Of a stretch of 64,000 nt of DNA, positions 6,521 to 27,575 are shown in pieces. Positions within the stretch are counted from its first letter, which is position 1; the number at the start of each line of letters is the position of its first letter. A program made the position numbers and the translations under genes. The notes below the pieces were generated by a model. It saw nothing but the letters and a program-made list of their open reading frames with translations, did no database searches and had not been told where the DNA came from. Source of the stretch: an uncultured Opitutaceae bacterium (lineage in GTDB: Bacteria; Verrucomicrobiota; Verrucomicrobiia; Opitutales; Opitutaceae); the NCBI GenBank assembly GCA_903890485.1, contig CAITBM010000021.1:1-64000 (forward strand). Direction: 5' to 3'.

Positions 6521-8305
6521 TCAGGAAATACCTGGAAGGGGAGACCGCCACTTTTGCCGGGGCAAGAGTACTAGCCCGACGAGCAGGAGCTGACTGAGAA
6601 CGAACGTGATCAGCCCATAAAACGCGGCGTTGGTGAACCCGTAGCTGTGGAGGCCAATGCCAAGCATGTTGGTACCAAACCAGCTCCAGGAGGTGACAAC
6701 ATTGCCAAAGACGGCCATGGCCATGAGCCCGCGCTGGCGGATCAATCCGGCCCAGCGGCAGTGCAGGATGACAGCATTCCAGAGCACGATGATGAGCGCT
6801 CCATTCTCCTTTGGGTCCCATCCCCAGAAGCGGCCCCAGGATTGGTCCGCCCAAATGCCACCAAGCACCGTGCCGATGAAGCTAAAGAACGTAGCAAAGC
6901 AGACGATCCCGTAGACCATCCTGGCGAGGGATTCGGCCGTGCGGGCATCAAGCGAGCGCGTGAGGACCCCCCGCAGGACGTAGATGATCGCAAGGAACCC
7001 GGCAAGGAAAGTGGCCGCATAGCCCGTGGTCACCGTAACGACGTGGGTCGAGAGCCAGAAGTTGGAGTCCAGGACGGCGCGCATCATCTCCATCGTGTCG
7101 CCGCTCAATGATAGGTGGTGGGCGATGATCAGTGTGCTGAACCCGATCATGCCCCCAGCCGCGCTCGCCACGGCATTGCGGTTCATGCGCTCGAGGATGA
7201 GGCACAGCCCTACTGAACCCCATCCGATGAACAGGGCCGACGAATACAGGTTGGTTACCGGTGGCCGGTCCTCCAGCCACATGCGGAAAAGGATGCCCGC
7301 GGTCGCGAGGACGAAGCCAATGTCCATCGCGTAAAGCGCCGCCCGACCCAGTTTTTCCGGCCATTTCAGCCACGAGGTGGCAGCCAGGAGGAAGGCCAGC
7401 ACGTAGAGCGCCATGCTCGTGTTGAACGGGTCGACCTTGTTGAAATAGGCCTCAAGCGCGGACCTTCGGCACTCCCTGTCAAAATGAGTGGCTAGGTCCT
7501 CACGGTATCCCGTGACAAGGCCGTTAAACGCCTGCGGGTCCTGGGCGCGCCACGCTCCGCCGAGTTGGGCGAAGAACCGCACGCGGGCGAGTGAAAGCGC
7601 TTGTTCGGTCGGAGAGCCAGCCGGCGCGAGGAGGAATTGACCGACGTTGCGCCACTCGTCAGGTCGACCCCCAGCCCGGGCGGGCGGGATAACCCTCAGT
7701 AGGCTGAAATCCCTCATAGCCTCGATCTCCGTCTGGTCGGCCGCTATCTTCTTGGGATCGGCGATCTCCGAGGCGAAGTCCTCCGACAAGGGGGACTCGG
7801 CAGAATACTTTAGGCGCACATAGTAGGCCACGTGCTCTCTGAGTTCGGTGACAGCGCGCTGGAACGGCGTCCGCACAGAGGCGTCAACTGCCGCGGCTAG
7901 GTCCGCCTGCTTGTCGAGCTCAGCTAGCTTGGGCTGCAACTGAACAAAGGTAAAACGGACGGCGGTGGTGCCGTCCCCACTCCCCAAGCCGAAGATCGAG
8001 AGGACGTCGGGATGATCGATGCGGAAGATGGGGTAGGTGTCCGCAAGGGCCGGCCGATAGACTACGTCAAGGAGCCACGCCACCGGCTGCGGCGAGCCAA
8101 GGGCCTCGACTCGCTGCCGACCCTGCACCATCAGCAGGCTTGTTCGCGCAATCGTGTCCAAGGGCTTTAGGCGACCGTCCGCAAGGACCGGTATGCTGCC
8201 CACTGCCGGAAGGTCAAAGCCCCCAGATCCACCCGAGGGCAGCAGCGTTGCGCCAACCCAAACGATAAGGAGCACCGCGACAATTGTGGGTAGGTCCCTT
8301 TTCAT
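6521..8305 (-). CDS. ccsA: System II cytochrome c biogenesis protein CcsA/ResC, with long N-terminal extension
   Basis: 594 residues, about twice the size of a minimal CcsA. Residues 1-300 start with one membrane helix and a large extracytoplasmic region that begins IPVLADGRLKPLDTIARTS. Residues 300-594 form the multi-helix heme-handling core with the WWD motif WADQSWGRFWGWDPKE (about 480-500) and conserved histidines (HHLSLSGDT, HSYGF). CcsA presents heme outside the membrane for attachment to CxxCH apocytochromes together with ResB. The start overlaps the resB stop by 4 bases. A fused paralogue of the pair lies at 24477-27575. The role is well supported by the many c-type cytochromes nearby. 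Confidence 0.9.
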   Translation of the reverse strand: MKRDLPTIVAVLLIVWVGATLLPSGGSGGFDLPAVGSIPVLADGRLKPLDTIARTSLLMVQGRQRVEALGSPQPVAWLLDVVYRPALADTYPIFRIDHPDVLSIFGLGSGDGTTAVRFTFVQLQPKLAELDKQADLAAAVDASVRTPFQRAVTELREHVAYYVRLKYSAESPLSEDFASEIADPKKIAADQTEIEAMRDFSLLRVIPPARAGGRPDEWRNVGQFLLAPAGSPTEQALSLARVRFFAQLGGAWRAQDPQAFNGLVTGYREDLATHFDRECRRSALEAYFNKVDPFNTSMALYVLAFLLAATSWLKWPEKLGRAALYAMDIGFVLATAGILFRMWLEDRPPVTNLYSSALFIGWGSVGLCLILERMNRNAVASAAGGMIGFSTLIIAHHLSLSGDTMEMMRAVLDSNFWLSTHVVTVTTGYAATFLAGFLAIIYVLRGVLTRSLDARTAESLARMVYGIVCFATFFSFIGTVLGGIWADQSWGRFWGWDPKENGALIIVLWNAVILHCRWAGLIRQRGLMAMAVFGNVVTSWSWFGTNMLGIGLHSYGFTNAAFYGLITFVLSQLLLVGLVLLPRQKWRSPLPGIS

Positions 8306-9480
8306 GGATTAGGGATCTTTGAGGGTTTGGGGGAGCGCCGCCGGAAGAACCCTATGAGGTGGACCCCGAACTCGATCGCCAGTCCCAATGCAATCAGCGC
8401 GCAGGAAATGTAGGGGACAAGCCAGCTCGGGTTGCTCACCACCTGGAGGACCGAGGTGCGATCGTTGTTCGAATAACCAGCCTGGTAGAAAGCCCGGCCT
8501 CCATACCGGAGCGGGTTGTTCATGAATATCCTAACCTCCCGGTCGTCCCTCCCGTCATCGCTCTTCAATTGGATCGTGCTGGCAAAATCCTTCGGGATGT
8601 CGGTGCCTGGGTAGATGTCATGAGTGAATTTCTTCAGCGTGAGGCTGAAGGGGAAGTAGTCGCGCTCGGCGCGGAGCACGATGTGCCATGTCTTTCCCTG
8701 GTAGGTGATTGCCTGGGGTTCCACCATCATCGTCGAGACGAGATAGGTTCCCAAGCTCGCCTCGGGAGCGACGAGCTCGACATAGGCCGCGGGGAAATTG
8801 GCCTCGTCCGTCTTGTAGGTGACCGGCGCCGGTTCGACGGCTACCTCGGGCCCGACACCCGCGGTTGCCAGGCTCGGGAGCGGGGAGGGCATCTGGCTCC
8901 TAGCCCTCATCTGTGCATTGGGATAATAGGCCACGGGCCGAATGCTAAACGGCAACTTGGGGTGTTGTATTTGTCCCTTGCCCTGGAGGAGTGCCACAGG
9001 AATCGCCACCACGTCGTCGTAGTCGGGGTTACTCACGTCGATTACCGCGAGCTCCGTCTCCCTGAAGCTCTCGCTGTAGCGGCGCGAACTCCCGACATCG
9101 ATGCGGACCTGGTTGTCCTTCTGGAGCATCCCGGATAACCCCTGCCCAACCAGAAGAAGGATCAACCCGAGGTGGGTGAGCCATATGCCGCTTTTTTTGA
9201 TGGACCACCTGAATCGAAGAAAGTGGGCGACCACCAGGTTTGGAAGCAGCAGGACAGCCAGGAGATAGCCTCCCGGAAAGATGGGAATGGACAGCCCGGT
9301 CCCCCGGAAAGGGGCATAAATGAGGAACGATCGGAAGTACTTCTCCTGGACCCCCCAAATTCCCAGGTGAACCTGGTCCAGGGTCGCCGCGAAGATGAGG
9401 AGGATTGAAAGGATCAACAGCACCACGGTTAACCGCAGCGAGTTGAAAAAGCCGAGGAGATGTTTTCCCAAGTCCTTCAT
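8302..9480 (-). CDS. resB: System II cytochrome c biogenesis protein ResB/Ccs1
   Basis: 392 residues with three N-terminal membrane helices (SLRLTVVLLILSILLIFAAT, the region near 80, and THLGLILLLVGQGL), a large extracytoplasmic domain and a final helix near residue 360, the layout of ResB. Typical ResB phrases are TLDQVHLGIWGVQEKYF near the start and PLRYGGRAFYQAGYS near the end. ResB keeps apocytochrome cysteines available and helps CcsA join heme. It overlaps ccsA by 4 bases and begins 5 bases after the lipoprotein gene upstream, so the three form one transcription unit. Confidence 0.88.
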   Translation of the reverse strand: MKDLGKHLLGFFNSLRLTVVLLILSILLIFAATLDQVHLGIWGVQEKYFRSFLIYAPFRGTGLSIPIFPGGYLLAVLLLPNLVVAHFLRFRWSIKKSGIWLTHLGLILLLVGQGLSGMLQKDNQVRIDVGSSRRYSESFRETELAVIDVSNPDYDDVVAIPVALLQGKGQIQHPKLPFSIRPVAYYPNAQMRARSQMPSPLPSLATAGVGPEVAVEPAPVTYKTDEANFPAAYVELVAPEASLGTYLVSTMMVEPQAITYQGKTWHIVLRAERDYFPFSLTLKKFTHDIYPGTDIPKDFASTIQLKSDDGRDDREVRIFMNNPLRYGGRAFYQAGYSNNDRTSVLQVVSNPSWLVPYISCALIALGLAIEFGVHLIGFFRRRSPKPSKIPNP

Positions 9481-9484
9481 GGTG

Positions 9485-10642
9485 TCAGGGCGCCTTCACG
9501 GACCTCAGAAACTCAAGGAATGCGGGCTTCGCGCCTGCGACGAGCTCGGTTGGCCCAGTCATCTTGAAGAACCATGAATTACCCTGCCAAAAGACTACTG
9601 CAGCCATGATTCTCTGAGGGTGGAGCGCATCCTTTGAGCCCGTGTCGGCCAGGAAGAACTCGAGGCCGTTTGCTTCCATATGGCTTGTGTACTGGGAAAG
9701 GTCGCCTTCCTCGATCGACGAAAGCCCCACTTGGCCAAGCCAGCGGTTGACGTTGGCCAGGGGACCGCCCACGTCCCCCGGGAATGCCGTGATCGACACG
9801 TCGCCGACCCCGCCTGGACCGAACGAATAGCTCCCCTTGCGCATGCTTCCGGCCGCCTTGATCGTCCAATCACCCGGCGCCGTCCAACGCAGGGACGACC
9901 CGCTCGCCGCCTTCAGTTCCGCCCCACCGGGAAGCGTCGAGCCGGTCGGGAGGCTGGAAAGGTCGGGACCCGCGGAATTTGCCTTTGGGAGGTCGTTGGT
10001 GTTGGCTCCCGCCGTTCCGCGAGACTCGTGGGCTGCGGCTTCAGCGAACCGGACAGATTTGAGAAATGTCAGGAATGCGTCCTTCTGCGAACCCACGACG
10101 TCCTTGGGACCCATTGCCTTGAAGAACCATACCTTGCCACCCCGGCGAAGCCAGGCCCCGAGGATACGGGAAAGCGGCTTTCCCTGTTCGGCCTTCTCGG
10201 CGACCAGGTCCGTCACTGAAAAATCGCCAGCCTGTGCCGAGAGGGCCTCCACCTGCGTCGGCAGGTCCCCCGCGCCAATAGGGGCGAGACTGAGCTGCCC
10301 CCTCCATCGGTTAATGTTTGCCAGCTCGTCCCCACCGGATCCGCCAAAGGTAATCACCGAAATGTCGGCGACAGCACCCGTCGGATCGGTAAAGGCAAAG
10401 CTTGCCAGACGCATCCCCGTGGCCTTCTGGGGGCTCCAATTGGCCGGGACCTGCCATTCGGCAGCAGCCGGTGCAACAGCTTGAACATCAGCGGGCTTTG
10501 CTGCCCGAGGAACGATGAAAAGGTCGCTGGGTTCCTTCGCGGTGCGGTAGGTGCGAACCTCCCCTTGCCGGCATCCCACCAGGAGCAGAGTGGCGGCCAG
10601 CACCGCGGTGCCATATCGGAAACTGGACTCGGGGAGTGTCAT
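9485..10642 (-). CDS. Lipoprotein with two tandem copies of an unnamed domain
   Basis: 385 residues from ATG 10642. The N-terminus is a lipoprotein signal with lipobox LLVGC (Cys24). Two copies of one domain of roughly 140 residues follow (about 65-205 and 245-385). Shared landmarks are a Trp-containing start (PANW, PGDW), a block with ISVITFGGSGG or VSITAFPGDVGG, then NINRWRGQ or NVNRWLGQ, and an ending with VWFFKAMGP or SWFFKMTGP before FLKSVRF or FLRSVKA. No catalytic motif is visible. It starts just after the terminator of the barrel gene and ends 5 bases before resB, linking it to cytochrome maturation. The longer frame from 10693 runs into that terminator and was rejected. Confidence 0.7.
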   Translation of the reverse strand: MTLPESSFRYGTAVLAATLLLVGCRQGEVRTYRTAKEPSDLFIVPRAAKPADVQAVAPAAAEWQVPANWSPQKATGMRLASFAFTDPTGAVADISVITFGGSGGDELANINRWRGQLSLAPIGAGDLPTQVEALSAQAGDFSVTDLVAEKAEQGKPLSRILGAWLRRGGKVWFFKAMGPKDVVGSQKDAFLTFLKSVRFAEAAAHESRGTAGANTNDLPKANSAGPDLSSLPTGSTLPGGAELKAASGSSLRWTAPGDWTIKAAGSMRKGSYSFGPGGVGDVSITAFPGDVGGPLANVNRWLGQVGLSSIEEGDLSQYTSHMEANGLEFFLADTGSKDALHPQRIMAAVVFWQGNSWFFKMTGPTELVAGAKPAFLEFLRSVKAP

Positions 10643-10649
10643 GCGTGGC

Positions 10650-10685
10650 GAAAAAAGAGACCGACCCCATAATGGGGCCGGTCTC
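10650..10685 (-). terminator. Rho-independent terminator after the outer-membrane barrel gene
   Basis: On the - strand a 12-bp stem (bases 10685-10674 with 10668-10657, one G-U pair) and a 5-base loop are followed directly by six T residues (A run 10651-10656 on +). It lies 25 bases past the barrel stop and ends 8 bases before the next ATG, so it separates the conduit genes from the lipoprotein-resB-ccsA unit. Confidence 0.88.
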
Positions 10686-10710
10686 GATTGCACTGCAATG
10701 TTTTGCGCTA

Positions 10711-12921
10711 TTAAAGCGCGTAGGTAAGCGACAGGTAGGCGAGGGGCCCGTTGTAGTTGGTGAATCCCCCGGTCGTGGTGTTTGTGTTCTTCATGTAACC
10801 CACCTTGGCGTCACCAATGATCCGGTCCGTGAACTTGTGCTTCAAGCCGACTGTGTAGCTTGATAGCTCAAAGCTCGCGCCGTAGGGGATGCCACCTAAG
10901 GCCACCTGCGGATTGTAGTTGTTCGCACGCTGCCAGAATCCCTGCAGCTGGATATCCGTGTTCTTGTCCGCCGCAAAGCCGCACAGGGCGCTGCCCGTGA
11001 TGTAGTTGTTGTCCGCATTCACGATCGGCGACTGCACGAACGGGGCCGTGGCCTTGACGACAACCGCCGGGTAGGCCGTTTGGATCGAGTTGTAGACAAC
11101 ATTGATGTTGGCCTGGACGTAGACCTGCTTGTACGGCGTCCAGTCGACGGTCTCGCTCAGCATCTTTATCGTGGCCTTGCCCGAGGGACTCTCGTTGCCC
11201 GAACCACCGGTCGGCGTATTAGCCGTTACCGACATGTTGCCGCCTTGGTCCTGGTAGCGGGTGTTGAACGAGAGCTGGGCCACGGGCCTGTAGATCACGT
11301 CAAGGGTCACACCTGTGAAGGTGTATCCGGTGGCATACAGGGATCCATAGCTTGCGGTCCCAACGTAGTCGTTCGCGCCAATGAAGCGGTTCTGGTGATC
11401 CTTGCGAAACACCTCGGCACGGATTGTTAACTGCTGGGTCGGGTTCCAGTTGGCGCCGAGCTTGGCGTTCTGGTTGTCCTGGTTCGCACCCTGGAAGAAC
11501 ACGCTGCCGAGCGGGGTCAGAGTGGTCGTGACCACGCCTGCGCCGTTCGTGCTGGTGGCCGCGAAGGGGTTGATCCAATGTTGGTTGCCCTTGTTGATGC
11601 GGTCATTGTACTCACCGTAGATGCACAGGTGGCTGATCCCGGTGTACTGGACGCTGAAGTCAGGGGTCTGCACTTGGTCGACCTCGTGGGAGTAGGTGAC
11701 GTCCTGGTTCGTGGTCTGGTAGGTGCTAGACGTGTTCTTGGCGGTGCTCGCCAGGGTCACGTTCGTGAACCCGCCGGAATCGGAGATCGAGTTATACTCG
11801 TCGCGGAAGCCGATGTCGGCCCTCCAGTCCTTGCCCGGGGTGAACTTCAGGAAGATGTTGCCCACATAGTCATCGACGGAGGGGTTCGCGAAGACGTTGC
11901 CCGCCGTGACCGTCGTGAATACGGCCTTGGCTCCGGCGTTGTAGGAGGGCGTGATCCAGTTTCCGCCGTCCACTCCGGTCATGTGGTAGTAGCTGAGTCC
12001 GGTTTCAAGGGCGAGTGTGCTGTTGAAAACCGTCTCCGTCTGGTTGATGACCCTGAAGCTCTTGGAATTCGTGGTCTCACGATCGTCGAGCACGGTGACC
12101 GTCGGATCGACAATCACGATCGAACCGGGATACCGAACGTAGACACGACCATCGTCGTTCCTGACCCAATCGAGCGTCGCCTTCAGCGTCTCGGTCGTCT
12201 TGCCGAAGGTGTCCGTCGCCGTTCCCTCGAAGATCTCGTGGTGCTCGTTCAGGTTCTGAACGTTGGGAGCGATGAAGGGCGTGTTTGCGGGATAGGCGTT
12301 GCCCACAAGGGCGCCCTTGGTGACCGTTGCATCGGGGGCTATGATCGCACCCCATTCCGAAGAGTCCTTTCGGCCCGTGCGAATCTCATTGTGGTAGCTC
12401 AGCGTGAACGAGGGGCCGTCCGCCTTCGCAATCTTGGCCTCGAACCAAAGGGCCGAGCGGTCGACGTGCAGGTTCTCCTGGCTCATCCTCTGGAAGGTGT
12501 TGGTGAGCGGGAAGAAACCGCCGACGCCGTCGTAAAAGATCCGATAGCGCTTGTAGCCCATTTCCACCGATCCCAGGTCATCCTTGGATATGACGACTGA
12601 GCCGAGATAGTCCTCGCTGCCGTCCATGGCGTGGCCATTCATCTTCAGGTTGATGTCCTTGGCGAGGTCCTTCGTGACAAACAGGTCCTCAATGCCGTAG
12701 GTGCCCGTCTTGCTCGGGACACCGGAGCGCGCCGCAAAGGCTGCGCCGTCGCCCGTGATGAACGGCGACTCGCCCGATATCTTGATGTAGCTCTCGTAGG
12801 ACGGAAAGGCGTCGGCCTCGGCGGGTGCCGCCGCGGCGGCTAGCCGCGTTACCGGAACGGTAAGGGCAGCGCTTGCACAGAGTAGGCTAGCGATGCGGAG
12901 TAGGGAGGAGGTCGTATGCAT
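10711..12921 (-). CDS. Large outer-membrane beta-barrel, MtrB/PioB-like candidate
   Basis: 736 residues with a Sec signal peptide (residues 1-30, ending near RLAAAAA) and no other hydrophobic helix. The rest is dominated by alternating, Thr/Asn/Tyr/Gly-rich strands and ends in a classical barrel signal (LAYLSLTYAL, aromatic near the C-terminus), as expected for a 20-plus-strand barrel. A MGYKRYRIFYDGVGGFFP segment near residue 120 recalls barrels paired with multiheme cytochromes. It begins 20 bases after an octaheme lipoprotein gene and has an AGGAG ribosome site. The pair resembles porin-cytochrome conduits such as MtrAB, in which the cytochrome sits inside the barrel. The Cys pair of Shewanella MtrB is not seen near the N-terminus. 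Confidence 0.65.
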   Translation of the reverse strand: MHTTSSLLRIASLLCASAALTVPVTRLAAAAAPAEADAFPSYESYIKISGESPFITGDGAAFAARSGVPSKTGTYGIEDLFVTKDLAKDINLKMNGHAMDGSEDYLGSVVISKDDLGSVEMGYKRYRIFYDGVGGFFPLTNTFQRMSQENLHVDRSALWFEAKIAKADGPSFTLSYHNEIRTGRKDSSEWGAIIAPDATVTKGALVGNAYPANTPFIAPNVQNLNEHHEIFEGTATDTFGKTTETLKATLDWVRNDDGRVYVRYPGSIVIVDPTVTVLDDRETTNSKSFRVINQTETVFNSTLALETGLSYYHMTGVDGGNWITPSYNAGAKAVFTTVTAGNVFANPSVDDYVGNIFLKFTPGKDWRADIGFRDEYNSISDSGGFTNVTLASTAKNTSSTYQTTNQDVTYSHEVDQVQTPDFSVQYTGISHLCIYGEYNDRINKGNQHWINPFAATSTNGAGVVTTTLTPLGSVFFQGANQDNQNAKLGANWNPTQQLTIRAEVFRKDHQNRFIGANDYVGTASYGSLYATGYTFTGVTLDVIYRPVAQLSFNTRYQDQGGNMSVTANTPTGGSGNESPSGKATIKMLSETVDWTPYKQVYVQANINVVYNSIQTAYPAVVVKATAPFVQSPIVNADNNYITGSALCGFAADKNTDIQLQGFWQRANNYNPQVALGGIPYGASFELSSYTVGLKHKFTDRIIGDAKVGYMKNTNTTTGGFTNYNGPLAYLSLTYAL

Positions 12922-12941
12922 GGGTTGGTCTCCTGTTAAGG

Positions 12942-13748
12942 TTAGGGCCTGAGCGAGGCATTCACGTTTGAGCCGTGTACATCCTCATGGCAGTTGGCGG
13001 ACCAGCAGGTGCCCTCAGAGAGGCGTGAGCCTACGGCGTTGGCGTGGGCGCCACCGCTTGCATAGCCTCCTATGTTGAATCCGGGGTTGAGAGTAGCCAG
13101 GTGGCAGCGCAGGCAGAGGTTGGCGTCGCGAGCGACGAGCATCTTGTCATTCACGGAACCGTGGGGGCTGTGGCATGCGACGCAGCCTTCCTCCCTGATT
13201 GCCCCGTGCTGGTAGACAAACGGGCCTGCCTGCTGGGTGTGGCAGCGGATGCAGGTTTCCGTCGAGGCTGCAAGGGAGGCACCGCCCCCGCGAACCGAGT
13301 CGCCCTTGTGGACATCGTGGCAATCGACGCAGCTGATCTTGCCGGCCAGGACCGGGTGCGTGTGCGGAAGGCTCATCTCGCCCCGCTTCTCCAAGTGACA
13401 CTGGAAGCAGGTCTCGGGCGACTTCCTGGGATTGATGATCGTCCCGGCACCGCCGCCGGCAGCAATGTGCATGCTGCCCGGGCCGTGACAGCTCTCACAG
13501 CCCGTGTCGCCGACCTTCGGGTCAGCGCCCGTAAGGGCCAAACGGCTGTGGGTTGAGCCACCGAAGTGGTCGGTCTGGTCGGTGTGGCATTGCGCACACG
13601 CTTTTGAGCCGACGTACTTGGCTCCTGCAATATGGGGGGGGACCACAACGGTGCGGTCCACCGAAATGCAAGAGACAAGGAGAAGGCCCCATACAGCGAG
13701 TCCGCTGAAGATTAGGGTGGTCTTGGACCAGTGTAGTTTCGGGCTCAT
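12942..13748 (-). CDS. Octaheme c-type cytochrome lipoprotein (MtrA/DmsE-like)
   Basis: 268 residues from ATG 13748. The N-terminus is a lipoprotein signal (WGLLLVSC, Cys27). There are seven CxxCH motifs (CAQCH, CESCH, CFQCH, CVDCH, CIRCH, CVACH, CLRCH) and one C-x4-CH (CWSANCH) near the end, so eight hemes. The start of the heme domain, YVGSKACAQCHTDQ followed by HSRLAL, is typical of the DmsE/MtrA group. MtrA itself has ten hemes, so this is a shorter relative. Its gene is 20 bases upstream of the barrel gene on the same strand, which suggests the protein forms the electron wire across the outer membrane. Lipid anchoring could place it on either membrane. Confidence 0.82.
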   Translation of the reverse strand: MSPKLHWSKTTLIFSGLAVWGLLLVSCISVDRTVVVPPHIAGAKYVGSKACAQCHTDQTDHFGGSTHSRLALTGADPKVGDTGCESCHGPGSMHIAAGGGAGTIINPRKSPETCFQCHLEKRGEMSLPHTHPVLAGKISCVDCHDVHKGDSVRGGGASLAASTETCIRCHTQQAGPFVYQHGAIREEGCVACHSPHGSVNDKMLVARDANLCLRCHLATLNPGFNIGGYASGGAHANAVGSRLSEGTCWSANCHEDVHGSNVNASLRP

Positions 13749-14353
13749 GTTTGTAGTATCGACAGTTTTTGGACTATTGACTCCGCAGATTCTGTTCATT
13801 CCTGCGCAATTCCTGAGAGTTCGGGGTGGGGGCAAGTCATGGCCCACATTCTCAGCGAGTGCACAATTGCCGGCTCTAGGATGGGAGTCATGGGATAAGT
13901 ATCTTTAGCGATTCTCGCAGAAATATCCGGGCGTCGCTCCGCACATCTTGCTTAACCCTGTGCGTGTCTTGGCAAAATACGTAAATTATTCATAGTTATG
14001 CTTCTCAGGCATATTATGGATTCTAATCATGCACCCTTCGACACCACTCCGTGGGTCCCGTTTCACGATACCTGCGCAATCACCGTCCGATGAATACAAG
14101 GTCATGTTGCGGTCTAGTAAGGCGATCAACGAGCACTCCAGCTGGACCCGGGGTGCACCCGGGCCCATCGCAGCCTGAAAAGCGTCATGCAGTGCAAGAT
14201 CTGCGGAGCAGTGGACAAACAATGAAGCGACCCCCCTCACGCATTCAGCTAGACTCGCATGAGAAGAACGGTTTTCCAATTCTGCGGTCTGTCGGTGGAG
14301 GCTTGCGCTTCCACTGGGCGCGCCGAAAAACATACTCAAACTCCCGAATCCCA
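13749..14353. other. 605-base divergent intergenic region of the cytochrome island
   Basis: No credible gene: the open frames here lack homology-like composition and ribosome sites. The stretch separates the octaheme/barrel operon (-) from a monoheme cytochrome gene (+) and must hold both promoters. The identical 10-mer CCTGCGCAAT occurs at 13801 and 14071 in the same orientation, and an AT-rich patch lies at about 13975-14030. The 10-mer may be an operator; I cannot assign promoters with confidence. Confidence 0.4.
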
Positions 14354-14692
14354 ATGAAAATCCCGACCAAACTCGCCCTAGCGGCCGCCGCCCTTGCACT
14401 CATCTCAGGGGGCGCCTATGCAGCCTCTGCTTCCGACAACTGGGATAATTCGTGCGCCTCCTGCCACGGCTCGGACGGCAAGGCGCAGACCAAGACGGGG
14501 AAGAAGCTCAAAATCAAGGACTACACCGATGCCGCGGTTCAGGCCCAGCTCAAGGACGACGAAATGATCAAGTCGATCACGGAGGGAATCAAGGGCGACA
14601 ACGGCAAGGAGAAGATGAAGTCCTTCAAGGACGAGCTCTCCGCTGACGAGATCAAGGACCTCGTGGGCTTCATCCGCAAATTCAAGGCCTGA
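14354..14692 (+). CDS. Small monoheme cytochrome c (class I)
   Basis: 112 residues: Sec signal peptide (residues 1-24, MKIPTKLALAAAALALISGG), then a single CASCH heme site near residue 34 in a HGSDGKAQTKTGKK context, and a C-terminal helix LSADEIKDLVGFIRKF. A Met near KEKMKSF is the likely axial ligand. The mature protein of about 88 residues would be a soluble periplasmic electron shuttle. ATG 14354 was chosen because the signal peptide starts there, although the frame is open for 100 codons upstream. A close paralogue lies at 21614-21943. A strong terminator follows. Confidence 0.88.
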   Translation: MKIPTKLALAAAALALISGGAYAASASDNWDNSCASCHGSDGKAQTKTGKKLKIKDYTDAAVQAQLKDDEMIKSITEGIKGDNGKEKMKSFKDELSADEIKDLVGFIRKFKA

Positions 14693-14718
14693 AACGCCAA
14701 CAGGCCATAACAAGCACG

Positions 14719-16282: not shown

Positions 16283-16446
16283 CCCGGCCCGCATAGCTGT
16301 TCCGGCGGTATGCGCCGCAGGAGCAGTACTCCGTCGCACGGGCAGGCGCCCGGGAGGACATCGCCGCTTGCCACAATCCGCACAAGATTGAGCAAAAGCT
16401 GCGCAGCGTAAGAGTTCCGAATAGTGATAATAAGGGGAAGGGCAAA

Positions 16447-18679: not shown

Positions 18680-18692
18680 GGGGAGGCGGGGG

Positions 18693-19967: not shown

Positions 19968-20917
19968 TTCTCGAAGTAGTAGAAGAACCGTGGATTCGTG
20001 CCCATCTCCTCCTTTAGCTGGATGAAGATGCGCTTCTCGCGAAGGATGTAGGACACCTCGCTGTCCGGATCCAGGATGTTGCCGAATTTCCTCGCTCCCA
20101 CAGGGCACACCTCAAGGCATGCGGGATATCGACCCACCCGCGTGCGCTGTATGCAAAAGTGGCATTTCTCCATGACACCCTGCTTGCGCGGCCGGTTCCC
20201 GAGGTAAGCCATGTTGGGATTCAGTCGCTCCTTGGGAATTTCCGGCTTTGTGAAGTTAAACCTTCGGGCCCAGTAAGGACAGGCCGCCTCGCAGTAGCGG
20301 CATCCGATGCACCAGTCGTAGTCAATCACGGTGATCCCGTCCTTCTCCTGCCATGTTGCGTGCACGGGACAGACCTTCACGCATGGGGGATTATGGCACT
20401 GCTGGCACTGCACCGGCATGTAGAAAAACCCCTTTTGCGGCACAGCCTCGGGATTGTACAGGTGATCTGCCTTCTCGATGTCCATCGAGCCGTGCGGCAG
20501 TTTGAGAACCCTGATGTACTGGATCTCGGGATTGCGCGATTGGTTGTTCTCGGCGACGCAGGCGTGCACGCATTTGCGACATCCTATGCAGCGTGTCAGG
20601 TTCAGGCAGTATACGAACTCTACGCCGTCCATCGGCTTTAGGTCGCGCACATGCGGGCGGATGCCATATTGTCGCTGAACCTCGTTCTCGATCCGCTTGA
20701 TGACCTTAGACATGTCATCCGGCGTCATCTCCTTGTAATATTTCTGCATGAACTCGTCGACCGACGAGTAATCTCCTATCTCCCTGAGGGGCGATAGGCT
20801 TGCAGCCAGGGCTCCAAGGCCGGCGAACGCGGCCGACGACCGAAGAAAATTGCGCCGCCCCATGAGGCGGTCTGTTTCGTCGGGGACTGCTGCGGGTGTT
20901 GGCTCAGTCGGAGACAT
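19964..20917 (-). CDS. Tat-exported four-cluster [4Fe-4S] ferredoxin-type subunit
   Basis: 317 residues. The N-terminus has a twin-arginine signal (GRRNFLRSSAAFAGLG). Four cysteine groups follow: CIGCRKCVHAC (about 110), CQQCHNPPCVKVC (about 171), CIGCRYCEAAC (about 202) and CHFC with a later CLEVC (about 251), the layout of NrfC, DsrO and TtrB subunits. It would sit on the periplasmic side and carry electrons between the NrfD-type subunit and the tetraheme protein. Neither a molybdopterin subunit nor a reductase is encoded nearby, so the final acceptor is probably a cytochrome. It overlaps NrfD by 4 bases and follows the tetraheme gene by 2. Confidence 0.9.
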   Translation of the reverse strand: MSPTEPTPAAVPDETDRLMGRRNFLRSSAAFAGLGALAASLSPLREIGDYSSVDEFMQKYYKEMTPDDMSKVIKRIENEVQRQYGIRPHVRDLKPMDGVEFVYCLNLTRCIGCRKCVHACVAENNQSRNPEIQYIRVLKLPHGSMDIEKADHLYNPEAVPQKGFFYMPVQCQQCHNPPCVKVCPVHATWQEKDGITVIDYDWCIGCRYCEAACPYWARRFNFTKPEIPKERLNPNMAYLGNRPRKQGVMEKCHFCIQRTRVGRYPACLEVCPVGARKFGNILDPDSEVSYILREKRIFIQLKEEMGTNPRFFYYFEK

Positions 20918-20919
20918 GT

Positions 20920-21594
20920 TCAGGGTGTCGTTGCTTGCGGCGCCTGCGGCTCAAGCAATACAGGTTGGCGTAGGGGGTGGGGAGGGGGCGCGGGCTTGCG
21001 CGTCGGGATCCTTGGGGCGTGCGGGTTGTGGCAATTGACGCAATCGAGGCGCTTGAATTCCCCGAGCTGGTGATTCCAGTAGCCGTTCATGCGCCCGTGG
21101 ACCCCGGCCTCCCAATCCCTGAAATTGGGGCCATGGCAGCTACCGCAAAGGCGCGAGCTCTCAGCGAACTGGAGCTCGTTTCCGTCACGGGTGGAGAACG
21201 TCAGCAGGTTGCCCTCATTGTGGCAGTTATAACACAGATTATTCCTGTTGTGGGTTCCGTGCCCCATTTTGATGTCCGAGTGCTCGTCGGGCACGATTAG
21301 CACATGCTGGTCGTCGTAGCGAAGGGGCGGCGGGTTCTTCTTTTCGTGGCAGACGTAACACTGGAAGTCCGACAAATCGGCCTTTTCCCTGGCAAGGTCC
21401 GCATAGGACTTTCGCCACGCTGTCTGCTCAAGAAAAGACGGATCAACGAGGGGTATCTTGGCCTGGGTGGCCGGCTTCCAGGGAGTTGCCAACAAAACCG
21501 CCGCTAGGGCAAGAAAGCCACAGGTTATGCCGGCGAGAACCCAATTGGTCCTGCGCAGGGAGCTTTCGCTCGGCCTCTTCGGGGTAGGGCTCAT
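20920..21594 (-). CDS. Membrane-anchored tetraheme cytochrome c
   Basis: 224 residues with one N-terminal membrane anchor (about 18-37) and four CxxCH sites (CYVCH, CYNCH, CGSCH, CVNCH). The last is in the common CVNCHNPH context, and a Pro-rich tail follows. Spare histidines between motifs (DQHVLIVPDEHSDIKMGHGTH) are probable axial ligands. It is the first subunit of a compact unit (tetraheme, FeS, NrfD) and is preceded by a monoheme cytochrome gene. The set resembles the cytochrome, FeS and NrfD parts of alternative complex III or Nrf/Dsr-type complexes, lacking their catalytic members. Confidence 0.87.
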   Translation of the reverse strand: MSPTPKRPSESSLRRTNWVLAGITCGFLALAAVLLATPWKPATQAKIPLVDPSFLEQTAWRKSYADLAREKADLSDFQCYVCHEKKNPPPLRYDDQHVLIVPDEHSDIKMGHGTHNRNNLCYNCHNEGNLLTFSTRDGNELQFAESSRLCGSCHGPNFRDWEAGVHGRMNGYWNHQLGEFKRLDCVNCHNPHAPRIPTRKPAPPPHPLRQPVLLEPQAPQATTP

Positions 21595-21613
21595 TACGAC
21601 GGCCGAACCTAAC

Positions 21614-21943
21614 TTACTTTTTCAGGGACCGGACGCGCTTAACGAGGGCGGTGATCTCATCGTCAGCAAGGCCTTCGATCGGCTTCATCTTAACCTTACC
21701 CGACGGGTCCTTGATGCCCTCCTTGATCGCCTTGATAGCCTGTTCGTCTGTGAACGATCCCTGGAATTCGGCATCGGTCATGCTCCTGATCTTGAGCTTC
21801 TTTCCCATTTTCGTGTCGCCCTGGCCGTCTTGGCCATGGCAGCTCGCGCACTTGTCCGTCCAGTTTGAGTCGACGTCCGCGGCATAGGATAGGGAACATG
21901 CGGCGAGTCCGGCAGCTGCAAGTGAGATACGTAGGTAGTTCAT
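21614..21943 (-). CDS. Small monoheme cytochrome c, paralogue of the one at 14354
   Basis: 109 residues with a Sec signal peptide (MNYLRISLAAAGLAACSLSYA), a single CASCH site near residue 34 in the phrase DKCASCHGQDGQGDTKMGKK, and a C-terminal LADDEITALVKRVRSL helix. A Met in KVKMKPIEG is a likely sixth ligand. It matches the 112-residue cytochrome at 14354 along its whole length, so the island holds two related periplasmic shuttles. The gene leads the operon with the tetraheme, FeS and NrfD genes, which suggests it is the electron acceptor of that complex. Confidence 0.88.
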   Translation of the reverse strand: MNYLRISLAAAGLAACSLSYAADVDSNWTDKCASCHGQDGQGDTKMGKKLKIRSMTDAEFQGSFTDEQAIKAIKEGIKDPSGKVKMKPIEGLADDEITALVKRVRSLKK

Positions 21944-22148
21944 TGGGGTTGTTTTGTTTTACGGTCCCAATATCGGGCTTTTCGCTCAGTGCAGCTACCG
22001 AGCGTTTGTTCAAGACTATGCATATTTTGCGGTCCTAATCTGAGTTGAAGCCCGTCTAATCGTTTCCCAACCCGCAAGAGATGCCCACCTCTGCGCAAGC
22101 ACTGCGTAGTGGTTCCCGCCGGGCAGGAGCATACTGCCCCCACGTCCC

Positions 22149-24464
22149 ATGAAGCCGCACCCCTGGCATGTTTTTACGGTGGCCTTCAGCATTATGGCAC
22201 TGGCTGGGACGCCGCTGGGTTGGTCCGCAGCAGCTCAGGGCGCGGAAAAGGTAAGGGATTCAGCGCAATCGATTCCAACATCCCCAGAGAAGGCGACTGC
22301 CGCCCCCGCGGTCGCCAACAGCGAGTGCATGGACTGCCACGAGGCCGAATTCAAGCCCCGCAGGAAGGGCTTGGCTCCGGAATGGATCGGCGTGAAGCCC
22401 GAAGTCTTTGCCCACTCCTCACATGGCAAGCTGAACTGTGTCGACTGCCATGCATCCATAACGGAAACCCCTCATCCGAGCAAACTGCCGGCGGTCGATT
22501 GCACGGCGTGCCACGCAAAGGCGCTGCCAAAACACCAGTTCCATCCCAGATTGGCGCAGAGCCCTATTCCGGTGGGAAAGGATACGACGTGCACCGAATG
22601 CCACGGAGGTCACGATACCGCTCCCGTAAAATCAAAGGATTTCAGTTTTGTCGATGGGCGCCAGATCGAATCCTGCGGGAAATGCCATGATGCCGAGCAT
22701 AACGACTATGTGGCATCGGCCCACGGGGTCCGATCGAGCGAAGGCAAGCGGATCACGCCCGACTGCCTTGCCTGCCATGAGAAGCGAATTACGGCTATCG
22801 GGAAACAGGAGCATACAGTCGAGCTAAAGCTAGCCCAGGCCAGCCTTTGCGAGTCCTGCCACGTCGAGAAGTCCGAGGTCGCCGACAAGTCGATTCGCGG
22901 GGCCAAGTTTGTGGCTTCCTTCAACCAGTCCGTGCACGGGTCCGCGCTCGCGGAGGGGCATGTCAAATCCGCCACCTGCGTCGATTGCCACGGGGCGCAC
23001 GCGATGAACAAGTCCGCGGTTGCAGGGGCTCGCATCAACCGCCTCCGGATCCCTGAGACTTGTTCAGCATGCCACGAGAAACAGGCTATCGAGTTCGCGA
23101 AGAGCGTTCACGCTGAGGCGCTTAGCAGGGGCAATGTCGACTCACCCGTGTGCACGGACTGCCATGGTGAGCATGATATCAAGAGACACACCGACCCGTC
23201 CTCCCCGGTCCACAACACGAACCTGGCCCAGCAGGTCTGCGCCGAGTGCCATGCATCGGTGCGCCTCACCAGCAAGTATGGGATGCGGAGCGACTCCTTT
23301 AAGACTTTCACCGACAGCTACCACGGACTCGCGGTGAGGGGTGGGGCGGTCGAGGTGGTCAATTGCGCGAGCTGTCATGGTGTGCACGCAATCAAGTCAC
23401 AGACAGATCCCACCTCGAGCGTCTACAAGGGCAACCTCGTGAAGACCTGCGGCGAGTGCCACCGCGGCGCGAATACTCGATTTGCAATCGGCGCGGTGCA
23501 CGCAAGCGCGTCGCGTCGCGATACCTCGTCGCTTCTGTATTGGATATCTACCCTGTACGTGGGGTTGATCATCGTCGTGGTAGGCGGAATGGCCCTCCAC
23601 AACCTGCTGGATTTCCTCAAAAAGACCCGGCGGAAGCTTGCTATACAAAAGGGTGAAATCCAGGAGCATCCGGTTGCCCACAGGCTCTATCTCAGGATGT
23701 CGCTCCACGAGCGCCTGCAGCACAGCGTGCTCGTGGTCAGCTTCGTCTTGCTTGTCGTCACCGGATTCATGCTGCGCTATCCCGAGGCATGGTGGGTCGT
23801 TGGGATCCGGCAGTTCAGCAGCCGGGCCTTTGACCTGCGTGGCCTAATCCACAGGATTTCGGGCGTCGTTATGATCGCAGGAGGGGTATGGCACATCGGC
23901 TACCTTGCATTCACGAAGCCCGGGCGGAAATTGTTCGTCGACCTGCTGCCGCGCTGGCGCGACGTGACCGACCCCTGGCAGGTGCTCAAGTACAACGTCG
24001 GACTAGTCCCCGACAAACCCGCGTTCGGCCGGTTCTGCTATATCGAAAAGGCGGAATATTGGGCCCTCGTTTGGGGCACGATGTTGATGGGCGCCACGGG
24101 CGCCATTCTTTGGTTTGAGAACACCTCGATGGGATGGTTCACCAAGCTTGGGTTCGACGCCGCGAGGACGGTGCATTTTTACGAGGCCGTTTTGGCAACC
24201 CTCGCCATCATAGTCTGGCACCTGTATTTCGTGATATTTAACCCGGACGTCTACCCGATGAATCTCGCCTGGCTGACCGGACGCATGTCCGAGCGCGAAA
24301 TGATCGAGGAACATCCCCTGCAACTTGAGGAGATGAAAGCTGAGGAGAGGGCCGCCGGGAACGCCCCGGAAGCTTCCGACCCTGGTGTACCTCCCGCGAA
24401 CCCGTCGGCCGGCGTAAACGACGGCCCAATAGAGGACCTGCCGGACGGTCCGGACGACTCCTAA
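22149..24464 (+). CDS. 13-heme cytochrome c fused to a b-type cytochrome membrane domain
   Basis: 771 residues. A signal peptide (1-31) is followed by thirteen CxxCH sites between about 60 and 450 (CMDCH, CVDCH, CTACH, CTECH, CGKCH, CLACH, CESCH, CVDCH, CSACH, CTDCH, CAECH, CASCH, CGECH). After one membrane helix near 465-485 comes a four-helix b-type module (about 520-700) with paired histidines in LQHSVLVVS, LIHRISGVVM, VWHIGYLAF, VHFYEAV and IVWHLYFVIF, as in hydrogenase/formate dehydrogenase cytochrome b subunits. The tail is acidic and Pro-rich. One chain could therefore oxidise quinol with b hemes and export electrons along a c-heme wire. It is divergent from the monoheme-NrfD unit. Confidence 0.85.
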   Translation: MKPHPWHVFTVAFSIMALAGTPLGWSAAAQGAEKVRDSAQSIPTSPEKATAAPAVANSECMDCHEAEFKPRRKGLAPEWIGVKPEVFAHSSHGKLNCVDCHASITETPHPSKLPAVDCTACHAKALPKHQFHPRLAQSPIPVGKDTTCTECHGGHDTAPVKSKDFSFVDGRQIESCGKCHDAEHNDYVASAHGVRSSEGKRITPDCLACHEKRITAIGKQEHTVELKLAQASLCESCHVEKSEVADKSIRGAKFVASFNQSVHGSALAEGHVKSATCVDCHGAHAMNKSAVAGARINRLRIPETCSACHEKQAIEFAKSVHAEALSRGNVDSPVCTDCHGEHDIKRHTDPSSPVHNTNLAQQVCAECHASVRLTSKYGMRSDSFKTFTDSYHGLAVRGGAVEVVNCASCHGVHAIKSQTDPTSSVYKGNLVKTCGECHRGANTRFAIGAVHASASRRDTSSLLYWISTLYVGLIIVVVGGMALHNLLDFLKKTRRKLAIQKGEIQEHPVAHRLYLRMSLHERLQHSVLVVSFVLLVVTGFMLRYPEAWWVVGIRQFSSRAFDLRGLIHRISGVVMIAGGVWHIGYLAFTKPGRKLFVDLLPRWRDVTDPWQVLKYNVGLVPDKPAFGRFCYIEKAEYWALVWGTMLMGATGAILWFENTSMGWFTKLGFDAARTVHFYEAVLATLAIIVWHLYFVIFNPDVYPMNLAWLTGRMSEREMIEEHPLQLEEMKAEERAAGNAPEASDPGVPPANPSAGVNDGPIEDLPDGPDDS

Positions 24465-24476
24465 CAGGCACCGCGG

Positions 24477-27400
24477 TCAGGGTTTTGTCCGGGCGCTAAA
24501 GCTCCTCCACCTTTCCAGGGGCTGGAGCGCCAAGCAGGCGATCGCCAGCTGACTAAGGCCAAACGCGATCAGCCAGTAGAAGGCTGCCTCCATAAAACCA
24601 TAGCTGTGTAGCCCGATGCCCAGCATGTTGACGCCGAACCAGCTCCAGCCGGTCACGATGTTTCCGAGCACGGCCATGACCATGAGCCCTCTCGATTCGA
24701 TGAGTCCCGCCGATCGGGCATGGAGAATCACCGTATTCCAAAGTACGATGAGCAGGGCGCCATTTTCCTTTGGATCCCAGCCCCAGAAGCGACCCCACGA
24801 TTGGTCGGCCCAGATCCCCCCGAGCACCGTGCCGACAAGGCTGAAGAGCGTGGAAAAGCAGATGACCCCGTAGACCATCCTGCTGAGTTCATCGGCTGTC
24901 TTCGCATCTAGGGAGCGACTTAGAAGCCCGCGGCCGATATAGATCAAAGCAAGGAAGCCCGCCAGGAACGTAGCCGCGTAACCCAAGGTCACGACGACCA
25001 CATGCGTTGCCAGCCAAAAGTTGGAGTCGAGCACGGCGCGCATCATTTCCATGGTGTCCCCGGAGAGGGAAAGGTGATGGGCGATCAGGAGGGTCGCAAA
25101 GCCGATCATCGAGGCGGCAACGGAACCCACTGCGTTCTTGAATCTCGCCTCGAGAACGAGGCAGAGGCTCACTGCGCCCCAGCCCACAAAGAGTGCGGAA
25201 GAGTAGAGGTTTGTGACCGGCGGCCTTCCCTCGATCCACATGCGGGCCGCAATCCCCAAGGTCGTTACCACCCAAGCTAGCGTCAGAACCCAAAACGAGG
25301 ACTTTCCCAGGGCCTTTGGGGACCGAAGCCACGATAACACGCCCAGCAAGAATGCAGAGCTGTAGAGCAACATACCCGCGTAGAAGGGCTCGGCATGGTT
25401 GAACCATGACTCAAATCGAACTTTTTCGGTGAGCCCGCGACTGCGTTCCCTTTGTCGTCTTCCAAATGCTTCGACTGACAAATCGAAAGCCCCAGTGTCC
25501 CGTGCGCGCCAAGCATGCCCAATCCGTGCAAATTCGAGAGCATCGGCATCGACCCTGTGATTGGTCAGACCCTCGGCGAGAGCCGCGCCCACAGATCGCC
25601 AACCAGACGGCACGCCTGCCGACGGGGCGATCAGCCTCAGATTTCCCATCTGCTCCATATACGAGAACCTATCTGACATCGCCTTAAGGGAAGCTACGGC
25701 TCCTGCCGGCACTTCGGCTTCCCGCGGATGACTGGACACTTCCATTCCGGACGCGAATTCGAGGAGCGATGAATAGAAATCAGGCAAGTCCGGAGGTTGC
25801 GCGCTGCTTCTTAGACGAAGGTAGATCTCTATGGCATTGCGCATCTCAACGAGCTTGCGTTGGTAGGGTGAACGCGAGTCGGGTGAGACCGCATCGGCAT
25901 TTCGAGCCTGGCGCTCCAGCTCTCCTAGCCGGGGCTTGAGCTGCGCAAACGAAAACCGAGACCGCCTCGAGGGACCGAACCCGACTACCGCGAAGGCACG
26001 CTTTAGCCCATCGGGGTAGCTGATGCGGGTTTCGGCATCGCCCATTCCTAGAACCTCGCGAAGCTCCTTGGAGTCGACAATGAAGGTCGGGTACGTGTCA
26101 GCCCGGTCGGGATCAAAGAGGACATCCGCTATCCAGGCGTCTGGATCCGCAACTAAGTACTCGCCCGTCTCAGGAAGTCGGACGTCCTGGCGTCCCTGGA
26201 TCTTCAGTAGCGTGGACCGAGCGACCGAGTCGAGTGGCTTGACTCGCCCTCCATCAAGCACGGCCAGCCGACCCAACGCGCCTACGTCCGCTCCGGGATG
26301 AACACTTCTGGGCCATAGCGAAAAGGCAACAAAGCCTCCCGCTAGACACACCGCGATGCACGGCGCGAGAAGCTCGCGCCTAGTCGATGTCCTCAGACTC
26401 CCATTAGGAGCGGTCCTGCCACTACCCGCGGGCCGAGGTGCAGAGAAGAGAAGGCAGAGAAAAAAGTGAGCGGTCATGCCAACGCCCATCATCAGGCAGG
26501 CGAAGTACGGCACGCTCCAACCCGGGTTTTTAACGACCTCGAACACGGACGATTTTCCGGCAAGATTCATCTGATACTGATAGAACGTGAATTGCCCGAT
26601 CCTAAGTGGCTCATTCATCGCAATTGCGACATCTCTGTATTCCTTTGCCTTGGGGCCACTTACCCTAACCCGGCTCACGAAGTTCCTGGGGATGTCGGTA
26701 CCCGGGTAGAGGTCGTTCTTGATTCCTTGCAGGGTAAGCGTAACGGGCAGGTATGTCCTTTCGGGTCTGAGCAGAATCTTCCATTCACGACCGGCAACCG
26801 AGAAGGTTTGGGAATCAGGAAGGAAGGGTGAAACTAGCCACGTGCCCAGGTATTTGCCTGCCGCGGAGATTCTGACGTAGGCGCCCGGAAAGTCAGATTC
26901 CTCCCCACCCGAACTCGGGGCCATGGGCACTAGGCGCATCCGGGCGCCCAACCCGCGGTCGGCGAGACCCGGGCTCCCGCTCGCCTCGATCGCCGCATTG
27001 GAGTGGTATTCGACCACGGAAACTGCGAACGGCAGTTCGGGGGCCGAAATTGCACCTTTTTGGGAGAATCGGGCGCCATTCAACACGACCTCCCGATCAC
27101 CGGGCCGGTCGCTCAAGCCAATTATCGCCAACTCAAAACTCCGAACGCTTTCCGAGTATCCTCGCGTCTCGCCGACTTCTAGTCGGAGCGTGCTCTCTCT
27201 TCTCAGGATGCCTGTAAAGAGTTCACCCAGAAGGAGCACTACCACGCCAGCGTGCACCAGGTTCAGGCCCAACCTACGCCATGATGTGTCCCAGCGAATG
27301 ACATAAGAGCATGCTAGGTTCGCCAAGAGCAGCCCGCCGATAAAATAGCCGCCGGGAAAGACTGGCACCGAGACCCCAGTTCCCGGAATGCCCCACTGGA

Positions 27401-27575
27401 CCACAATGCTGCGGAAATACTTTTCCTGAATTTCCCAGATCCCAAGGTGGGTTTGGTCAAGCGTCGCGGCAAATACCAGCACCATGGAAACGACGAGCAG
27501 GCCAACGGTCGTCCGCAGGGAAGCGAGCCCCCCGAAGAGAACCCGCATGAGGTTTTTTGTGTCCGTAATTGTCAA
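24477..27575 (-). CDS. Fused ResB-CcsA cytochrome c synthetase
   Basis: 1032 residues. Residues 1-385 are ResB-like, with TLDQTHLGIWEIQEKYF, an extracytoplasmic domain and PLRIGQFTFYQYQMN. Residues about 400-1032 are CcsA-like: an extracytoplasmic part starting LAVLDGGRVKPLDSVARSTL, then the helix-rich core with WADQSWGRFWGWDPKE (about 925) and HSYGF. It parallels the split pair at 6521-9480 segment by segment, sharing exact stretches such as SLSGDTMEMMRAVLDSNFWL. Natural ResB-CcsA fusions are known in epsilonproteobacteria and Bacteroidetes. It is convergent with the 13-heme gene 12 bases away. Two versions in one island suggest different client cytochromes. Confidence 0.88.
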   Translation of the reverse strand: MTITDTKNLMRVLFGGLASLRTTVGLLVVSMVLVFAATLDQTHLGIWEIQEKYFRSIVVQWGIPGTGVSVPVFPGGYFIGGLLLANLACSYVIRWDTSWRRLGLNLVHAGVVVLLLGELFTGILRRESTLRLEVGETRGYSESVRSFELAIIGLSDRPGDREVVLNGARFSQKGAISAPELPFAVSVVEYHSNAAIEASGSPGLADRGLGARMRLVPMAPSSGGEESDFPGAYVRISAAGKYLGTWLVSPFLPDSQTFSVAGREWKILLRPERTYLPVTLTLQGIKNDLYPGTDIPRNFVSRVRVSGPKAKEYRDVAIAMNEPLRIGQFTFYQYQMNLAGKSSVFEVVKNPGWSVPYFACLMMGVGMTAHFFLCLLFSAPRPAGSGRTAPNGSLRTSTRRELLAPCIAVCLAGGFVAFSLWPRSVHPGADVGALGRLAVLDGGRVKPLDSVARSTLLKIQGRQDVRLPETGEYLVADPDAWIADVLFDPDRADTYPTFIVDSKELREVLGMGDAETRISYPDGLKRAFAVVGFGPSRRSRFSFAQLKPRLGELERQARNADAVSPDSRSPYQRKLVEMRNAIEIYLRLRSSAQPPDLPDFYSSLLEFASGMEVSSHPREAEVPAGAVASLKAMSDRFSYMEQMGNLRLIAPSAGVPSGWRSVGAALAEGLTNHRVDADALEFARIGHAWRARDTGAFDLSVEAFGRRQRERSRGLTEKVRFESWFNHAEPFYAGMLLYSSAFLLGVLSWLRSPKALGKSSFWVLTLAWVVTTLGIAARMWIEGRPPVTNLYSSALFVGWGAVSLCLVLEARFKNAVGSVAASMIGFATLLIAHHLSLSGDTMEMMRAVLDSNFWLATHVVVVTLGYAATFLAGFLALIYIGRGLLSRSLDAKTADELSRMVYGVICFSTLFSLVGTVLGGIWADQSWGRFWGWDPKENGALLIVLWNTVILHARSAGLIESRGLMVMAVLGNIVTGWSWFGVNMLGIGLHSYGFMEAAFYWLIAFGLSQLAIACLALQPLERWRSFSARTKP

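Follow-up and report, generated by a model that had tools for sequence, protein, structure and literature searches.

A multiheme cytochrome island in an uncultured Opitutaceae bacterium: a probable extracellular-respiration system with a divergent MtrAB-type conduit

The DNA studied here, called the window, is a stretch of 64,000 nucleotides (positions 1 to 64,000, forward strand, of contig CAITBM010000021.1, assembly GCA_903890485.1) from an uncultured Opitutaceae bacterium; the contig measures 70.8 kb and belongs to a genome of 3.1 Mb that is 97% complete (G000 below). An island of cytochrome genes occupies positions 6521 to 27575, and we consider it quite probable that this island is an extracellular-respiration system, composed of quinol oxidases and of an outer-membrane conduit exporting electrons. 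Gene content, gene order, heme counts, homology of an octaheme cytochrome to MtrA, the predicted fold of the adjacent beta-barrel and co-occurrence of the pair with an ImcH-type protein were all obtained directly. Electron export to an extracellular or outer-membrane acceptor had been proposed in the initial annotation, and is supported by the MtrA homology, the MtrB-like predicted fold and the ImcH tie, direction and acceptor being inferred. Homology and predicted fold are a stronger ground for a conduit than the heme counts. Publications are cited by their PMC accession.

When CX2CH, CX3CH and CX4CH were counted together, 34 heme motifs were found over six proteins (8, 1, 7, 4, 1 and 13), the same figures as those first annotated. 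Shuffling the residues of the six cytochromes 1000 times gave a mean of 0.48 motifs and a maximum of 4. CX2CH accounts for 32 of the 34, the exceptions being the CX3CH with which the heptaheme motifs begin and the CX4CH with which those of the octaheme end. Over the whole window, CX2CH motifs were confined to 12.9-24.5 kb (stop-to-stop open reading frames, ORFs, of at least 60 aa). Left out of the 34 were one CX2CH that sits among the cysteines of an iron-sulfur (Fe-S) protein at 19964-20917, and one in an antisense ORF at 16206-16904.

The octaheme cytochrome (12942-13847, minus strand, with the ATG near 13748 as its likely start) has seven CX2CH, a C-terminal CX4CH and a lipobox, LVSC. Its best match in the PDB was chain 6r2q_A (E 1.4e-27, 100 bits), with NrfB second at 23 bits. 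The match table labels this chain cystathionine beta-synthase, an evident mislabel; we read it as MtrA, since 6r2q contains the Mtr complex and the chain that aligns is a multiheme protein. The 13-heme protein of the window had a single PDB match, NrfB (E 0.01, 17 bits). Alignment with homologues from other phyla placed a missing internal stretch at hemes 3-4, hemes 1-2 and 5-10 being retained. By these comparisons, the octaheme is an MtrA homologue shortened by loss of an internal heme pair. The ten CX2CH of an MtrA-type subunit are not present in it, and it scored below the cut-offs of TIGR03508 and NF041028. Because of this heme number and these scores, we do not file the octaheme and its barrel as a member of MtrAB, only as homologous to it and probably alike in working.

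A profile of the octaheme found at least 310 relatives in named genomes; the best 80 of these were kept, and the counts that follow describe these nearest relatives. Seven CX2CH plus one CX4CH were present in 34 of the 80 (30 titled Verrucomicrobiota, one 'bacterium', three Omnitrophota), ten CX2CH in 40, and 5, 7, 8, 9, 11 or 22 in six others. A tree of 78 rows, in which the octahemes join with decahemes in line with the MtrA homology, made by a quick method with midpoint root and Shimodaira-Hasegawa-like approximate likelihood ratio (SH-aLRT) supports only, put the CX4CH octahemes on one side of a branch with a support of 98; L111 (22 motifs), L097 (truncated) and L139 (short) had been dropped beforehand. 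An octaheme of Luteolibacter with CX2CH motifs throughout adjoins them (SH-aLRT 95). An N-terminal lipobox, scored by a single ad hoc rule, was found in 31 of the 34, the exceptions being the Omnitrophota proteins. It is not unique to octahemes, as it also occurs in 10 of 43 proteins with at least nine CX2CH (L096, L097 and L139 excluded). In the same tree, a decaheme whose record is titled Bordetella parapertussis (L104) falls inside an Acidobacteriota group, beside a Bryobacterales record; its title is probably wrong.

The second half of the pair is an outer-membrane beta-barrel (10711-12921, minus strand). No sequence match was found for it in Pfam, NCBIfam or the PDB, and a profile run against the PDB was also negative. 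Its AlphaFold2 model has a mean predicted local distance difference test (pLDDT) score of 77, is good in the strands, and shows about 26 strands when counted by eye. The top fold in VIA-align was MtrB (6r2q_B, Z 23.8, root-mean-square deviation 3.9, 564 of 649 residues); the runner-up had Z 20.0, a deviation of 5.0 and 464 residues. Among the Foldseek rows shown, MtrB came second by E-value and first by template modelling (TM) score, 0.58/0.65 versus 0.41/0.46 for a TonB receptor. The model has a helix at residues 59-66 after strand 1, followed by short strands; MtrB is described as having a small helix that separates strand 1 from strand 2, its first four strands being short (PMC7198977), and models of PioB and MtoB are reported to match MtrB too (PMC10654088). 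The barrel is thus predicted, most likely, to have an MtrB-like fold. The two genes, named as a pair in the initial annotation, are adjacent, and this is kept in all 14 other barrel-bearing genomes (in one, G122, the barrel was placed by protein-search coordinates), and 30 of the 34 octaheme loci gave a barrel match above 50 bits. From the alignment of the octaheme and the model of the barrel, the pair appears to be a divergent MtrAB-type conduit. As a separate observation, octaheme-adjoining barrels carry an N-terminal CX2CH in six Verrucomicrobiota loci (L079, L081, L086, L092, L093 and L095; L080 is split). In the three that were scanned (L081, L092, L093) this motif belongs to the planctomycete cytochrome domain PSCyt1 (PF07635), making these barrels cytochrome-porin fusions in addition to the separate octaheme.

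Three candidate quinol-oxidising modules accompany the pair. The heptaheme (14783-16282, plus strand, PF03264) is 499 aa long, with three N-terminal transmembrane (TM) segments and a CX3CH followed by six CX2CH. TM count, motif order and length are those given for ImcH (three N-terminal TM, CX3CH then six CX2CH, 495-519 aa; PMC6295460), and by its architecture the protein would be an ImcH-type quinol oxidase. A CbcL-type protein (22149-24464, plus strand) joins 13 CX2CH to a cytochrome b561-type membrane domain (PF01292 at residues 516-699), of which three TM pass the hydropathy threshold, compared to six in CbcL, MtrH and MtoC. Near the conduit, five other loci (L024, L026, L038, L039, L040) hold a second, 11-heme CbcL-type paralogue that is not in the window.

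The third module lies on the minus strand. It comprises a membrane-anchored tetraheme in the CbcS/DsrJ position (20920-21594; four CX2CH, one TM), a DsrO/CbcT-like Fe-S protein (19964-20917) with 4Fe-4S domains and a Tat-like signal seen by eye, scoring 171.8 bits against NF045797, under its cut-off of 200, and an NrfD/DsrP-type integral membrane protein (18693-19964; PF03916) with 425 bits against NF045798 (DsrP), cut-off 350. By family and motif content these three would form a Cbc4-like module. The coordinates first given for the island stood overall, except that the DsrP-like ORF, listed to 20108, probably starts near 19964, about 48 codons in, because in its relatives the match begins at residue 48 or the frame is 426 aa long (L032, which matches from residue 1, is the exception). 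Two monoheme class I cytochromes c, also as annotated, both belong to PF00034: one at 14336-14692 on the plus strand (E 1.1e-9, within a listed ORF at 14051-14692), a probable periplasmic shuttle, and one at 21614-21943 on the minus strand (E 8.6e-8).

Co-occurrence was examined in 288 genomes of the phylum. Protein search found the barrel in 15, the window's genome among them; 13 belong to the same family and two to another family of the same class (f9). The contrast set was 12 sampled genomes of the same family without the barrel. The octaheme was present in 15/15 barrel-bearing and 0/12 barrel-free genomes, and full-length ImcH-type proteins in 14/15 and 0/12, weak short matches apart (13/13 and 0/12 within the family alone). 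CbcL-type matches above 300 bits were found in 9/15 versus 0/12, and three others of the 15 gave matches that were weaker or to paralogues. The tetraheme was present in 6/15 versus 0/12. Fisher tests, which ignore relatedness, gave 7e-7 for ImcH (14/15 versus 0/12), then 0.001 and 0.02 for the CbcL-type protein and the tetraheme. The ImcH gene lay inside the examined stretch in 10 of the 14 barrel-bearing relatives. An ImcH gene beside an MtrA-type cytochrome is not exclusive to the octaheme kind: it was seen within the examined flank in 10 of the 34 octaheme loci, and 6 of the 46 other loci show it as well (five decaheme-type and one, L096, with eight CX2CH), many flanks being short. A 2018 survey did not find mtrAB beside imcH, and counted four CbcL and one ImcH homologues in Verrucomicrobia (PMC6295460).

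Could the conduit run inward, as in PioAB or MtoAB, supplying the quinone pool or oxidases with electrons drawn from reduced humics or Fe(II)? Terminal oxidases are present in all 15 barrel-bearing genomes, CbcL-type proteins also occur in Fe(II) oxidisers (PMC6295460), and PioAB and MtoAB, like this island, are without an extracellular cytochrome (PMC6344600). What speaks for export is ImcH, the most constant partner of the conduit here, which is tied only to reducers in the same survey (PMC6295460). We consider the inward direction unlikely.

Another possibility is that the inner-membrane modules pass electrons to partners in the periplasm (nitrite, sulfite, peroxide, or, through cytochrome c, oxygen), the barrel and octaheme being a separate, minor system. 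The DsrP-like protein exceeds the DsrP cut-off, as given above, and the NrfA family had some match in 13 of the 15 barrel-bearing genomes, over the cut-off in 8 and near full-length (above 400 bits) in 6. The genes of these six are always on a different contig or at a distance of megabases from the island, and in none of the 15 genomes was a full NrfA near it. The window's genome gave a single NrfA match of 19 bits, below the cut-off, which falls on an ActA-like gene. DsrA matches were found in three of the 15, one of them convincing, although under the cut-off and on another contig; none was found in the window's genome (97% complete), and sulfite respiration via DsrOP was rejected for this reason. 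Heme-copper oxidases, present in every barrel-bearing genome, gave three matches in the window's genome; an oxidase was near the island in G166, and a cytochrome b in 6 of 54 stretches. The initial annotation would have been contradicted by a nitrite, sulfur or oxygen reductase as the regular adjacent partner of these genes, and we found none that is regular: a terminal reductase is not a regular partner of the island. With ImcH moreover tracking the barrel, a purely periplasmic role of the modules appears very unlikely. Oxygen is probably a further acceptor for this organism, whose genome has the three oxidase matches and ActA/ActB-like genes (recognised by reading the DNA, not by family search; the ActA-like one on contig C52).

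A barrel of unrelated origin, a large porin or transporter lying next to a periplasmic cytochrome by chance, is highly improbable: no sequence similarity to MtrB was found in NCBIfam or the PDB and TonB receptors are close in Foldseek, but the octaheme adjoins it in 14/14 relatives, the barrel match recurs in 30/34 octaheme loci, and a full-length MtrB match leads in VIA-align.

Several observations nevertheless weigh against extracellular respiration as we read it. Large barrels look alike, and by Foldseek E-value a TonB receptor stands marginally above MtrB. The structure model of the octaheme was poor (pLDDT 52) and was left unused, and the heptaheme was assigned to ImcH by its architecture. 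Among the 15 barrel-bearing genomes, the CbcL-type protein is missing from six and the tetraheme from nine, and five have a single strong ResC, making a second maturation system dispensable. In G166, which has the conduit without ImcH, roughly 8 kb separate an oxidase from the barrel and roughly 4 kb separate it from resC; the distance from oxidase to barrel is 28-29 kb in G155 and G013. The cytochrome b of 6/54 stretches, together with a Rieske protein in 5/54 (BLAST clusters, Pfam run on representatives), points the same way. Finally, a search of the window's genome for extracellular decahemes, as suggested in the initial annotation, was run with three families and found no extracellular cytochrome; the other multiheme loci seen in this genome were the ActA-like gene on C52 and, on C6, the gene of a 353-aa protein with a membrane anchor, plus a match below cut-off on C109. 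The C6 frame (G000:C6:152721-155861, L001) has nine CX2CH by eye count, an N-terminal TM-like stretch and a NapC-like start. In some other Verrucomicrobiota loci, 7- or 9-heme proteins are encoded upstream of the octaheme, and the two tested (L083, L089) match MtrC/MtrF domains.

For redox partners, direction, acceptor and lipidation, we infer the following route. Quinol, probably menaquinol, would be oxidised at the inner membrane by the ImcH-type protein, the CbcL-type protein or the Cbc4-like module, and the monoheme cytochromes would carry the electrons from these modules to the octaheme. The octaheme, which a lipid probably anchors to the outer membrane on its inner side, would be threaded through the MtrB-like barrel of about 26 strands, and the CX4CH heme at the end of the octaheme would hand electrons to an acceptor outside, probably Fe(III) or humic quinones. 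Heme attachment would fall to the neighbouring ResBC proteins. Outward direction is preferred because ImcH is known only from reducers (PMC6295460). In Geobacter, both ImcH and CbcL are quinol oxidases tied to extracellular respiration (same source). Heme 1 of MtrA protrudes about 20 angstrom into the periplasm (PMC7198977); a shorter wire with a lipid tie may place the entry heme nearer to the membrane, a position suited to small, mobile cytochromes as donors. We further propose, tentatively and as a view slightly more likely to fail than to hold, that Verrucomicrobiota and Omnitrophota share a separate MtrAB-type subclass (one heme pair lost, CX4CH exit heme, lipid anchor in Verrucomicrobiota), which in the Opitutae family co-evolved with ImcH; an oxidase-bearing lineage would thereby carry an outward respiration in which humics are reduced by the exit heme itself, no MtrC-like cytochrome being needed.

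The genes are arranged around a compact core operon on the minus strand, in the order octaheme, barrel, lipoprotein, ResB and ResC, with intergenic gaps of at most 20 bases. ResC/CcsA (6521-8305; PF01578, E 1.3e-23) and its ResB partner (8302-9480; PF05140, E 3.1e-18) are of System II. The lipoprotein (9485-10693, minus strand), which has a duplicated domain and scored below family cut-offs, adjoins resBC in six other loci (L034, L036, L037, L041, L077, L102) and is possibly a maturation accessory. A fused ResB-ResC, the second System II protein (24477-27575, minus strand; PF05140 and PF01578), closes the island, so that two maturation systems do flank it, as annotated. The window's genome has no other strong PF01578 match than these two, a third and weaker one being a 313-aa frame elsewhere. 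With 70 bits or more taken as strong, an extra ResC copy was counted, as a row count with no statistic, in 10/15 barrel-bearing versus 1/12 barrel-free genomes of the family; 11 of the 12 conduit-free members have one strong copy. The idea that CX3CH and CX4CH hemes need a second, specialised maturation system was rejected, five genomes (G143, G169, G181, G274, G283) carrying the conduit with one strong ResC.

Divergent from the core operon are the first monoheme, the ImcH-type protein and a DUF2339 membrane protein (16447-18189, plus strand; PF10101, E 3.7e-23), a recurrent neighbour found in seven loci. There follows a further minus-strand set of monoheme, tetraheme, DsrO-like and DsrP-like genes and a 161-aa protein (18194-18679) ending in HPGCTCGG, for which family search was negative and which is kept in some relatives (L026, L032, L096), then the CbcL-type gene on the plus strand and the fused ResBC. 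An AraC-family regulator with a PocR domain lies near the island at 4984-5952; similar AraC-type genes adjoin the octaheme in f9 relatives (L036, L041) and in L077. On the other side, 27924-47199 holds a single-chain pyruvate:ferredoxin oxidoreductase, a complex I gene set and a 2-oxoacid:ferredoxin oxidoreductase; NuoEFG were not among the ORFs scanned in the window. This suggests that a ferredoxin-fed complex I may supply quinol to the island.

If the proposed route is true, one locus holds a full path from inner to outer membrane. Anaerobic respiration of Verrucomicrobia in humic lakes and soils has so far only been hypothesised, and the island would supply a route for it; it would also link the porin-cytochrome clusters described in this phylum in 2017 to the MtrAB kind, and be a natural shortened wire (eight hemes versus ten) bearing on how long a conduit must be. 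Tests are possible, as a cultured carrier, Opitutus terrae, has been named (PMC5615132).

The system is not new. It is a further example of the porin plus eight-heme kind described in 2017, to which MtrA homology, a lost heme pair and the ImcH tie are added. That paper found clusters of a porin and a cytochrome with eight heme sites in Trout Bog Verrucomicrobia, proposed that they transfer electrons to humics, and reported homologues in Opitutus terrae PB90-1 and others (PMC5615132). A 2019 paper takes up the proposal (PMC6344600); among the papers examined, porin-cytochrome conduits of Verrucomicrobia are described in these two only. The conduit reading of the barrel/octaheme pair in the initial annotation held, although it missed this publication of the type (PMC5615132). 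Likened by description, the 2017 clusters share with the island a large porin (at least 20 transmembrane motifs there, about 26 strands here) and an eight-heme cytochrome; several of them include an extracellular cytochrome, whereas this island has none, and the paper states that systems homologous to those of Shewanella and Geobacter are absent from its genomes, whereas MtrA homology and an MtrB-like predicted fold are seen here (PMC5615132).

With MtrAB, PioAB and MtoAB the island shares an MtrA-type multiheme homologue beside a barrel of MtrB-like predicted fold with about 26 strands. It differs by eight hemes instead of ten, a CX4CH last heme, a lipobox, and a barrel unrecognisable by sequence, and no MtrC was found. 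ResB/ResC resemble CcsBA of System II, with one split and one fused copy, here both inside the island. Cbc4 (CbcSTU) and DsrJOP have the same composition as the third module, a c-type cytochrome, a DsrO/CbcT Fe-S protein and an NrfD-type membrane protein (PMC11434368); compared to DsrJOP, a tetraheme stands in place of the DsrJ triheme and a DsrA match is absent from this genome. The heptaheme is like Geobacter ImcH in its three TM, its CX3CH plus six CX2CH and its length of about 500 aa, and the CbcL-type protein is like Geobacter CbcL in its N-terminal hemes and C-terminal b-type cytochrome, with 13 hemes versus 9 in G. sulfurreducens. Compared to Geobacter, the ImcH-type and CbcL-type proteins here share one locus with the conduit.

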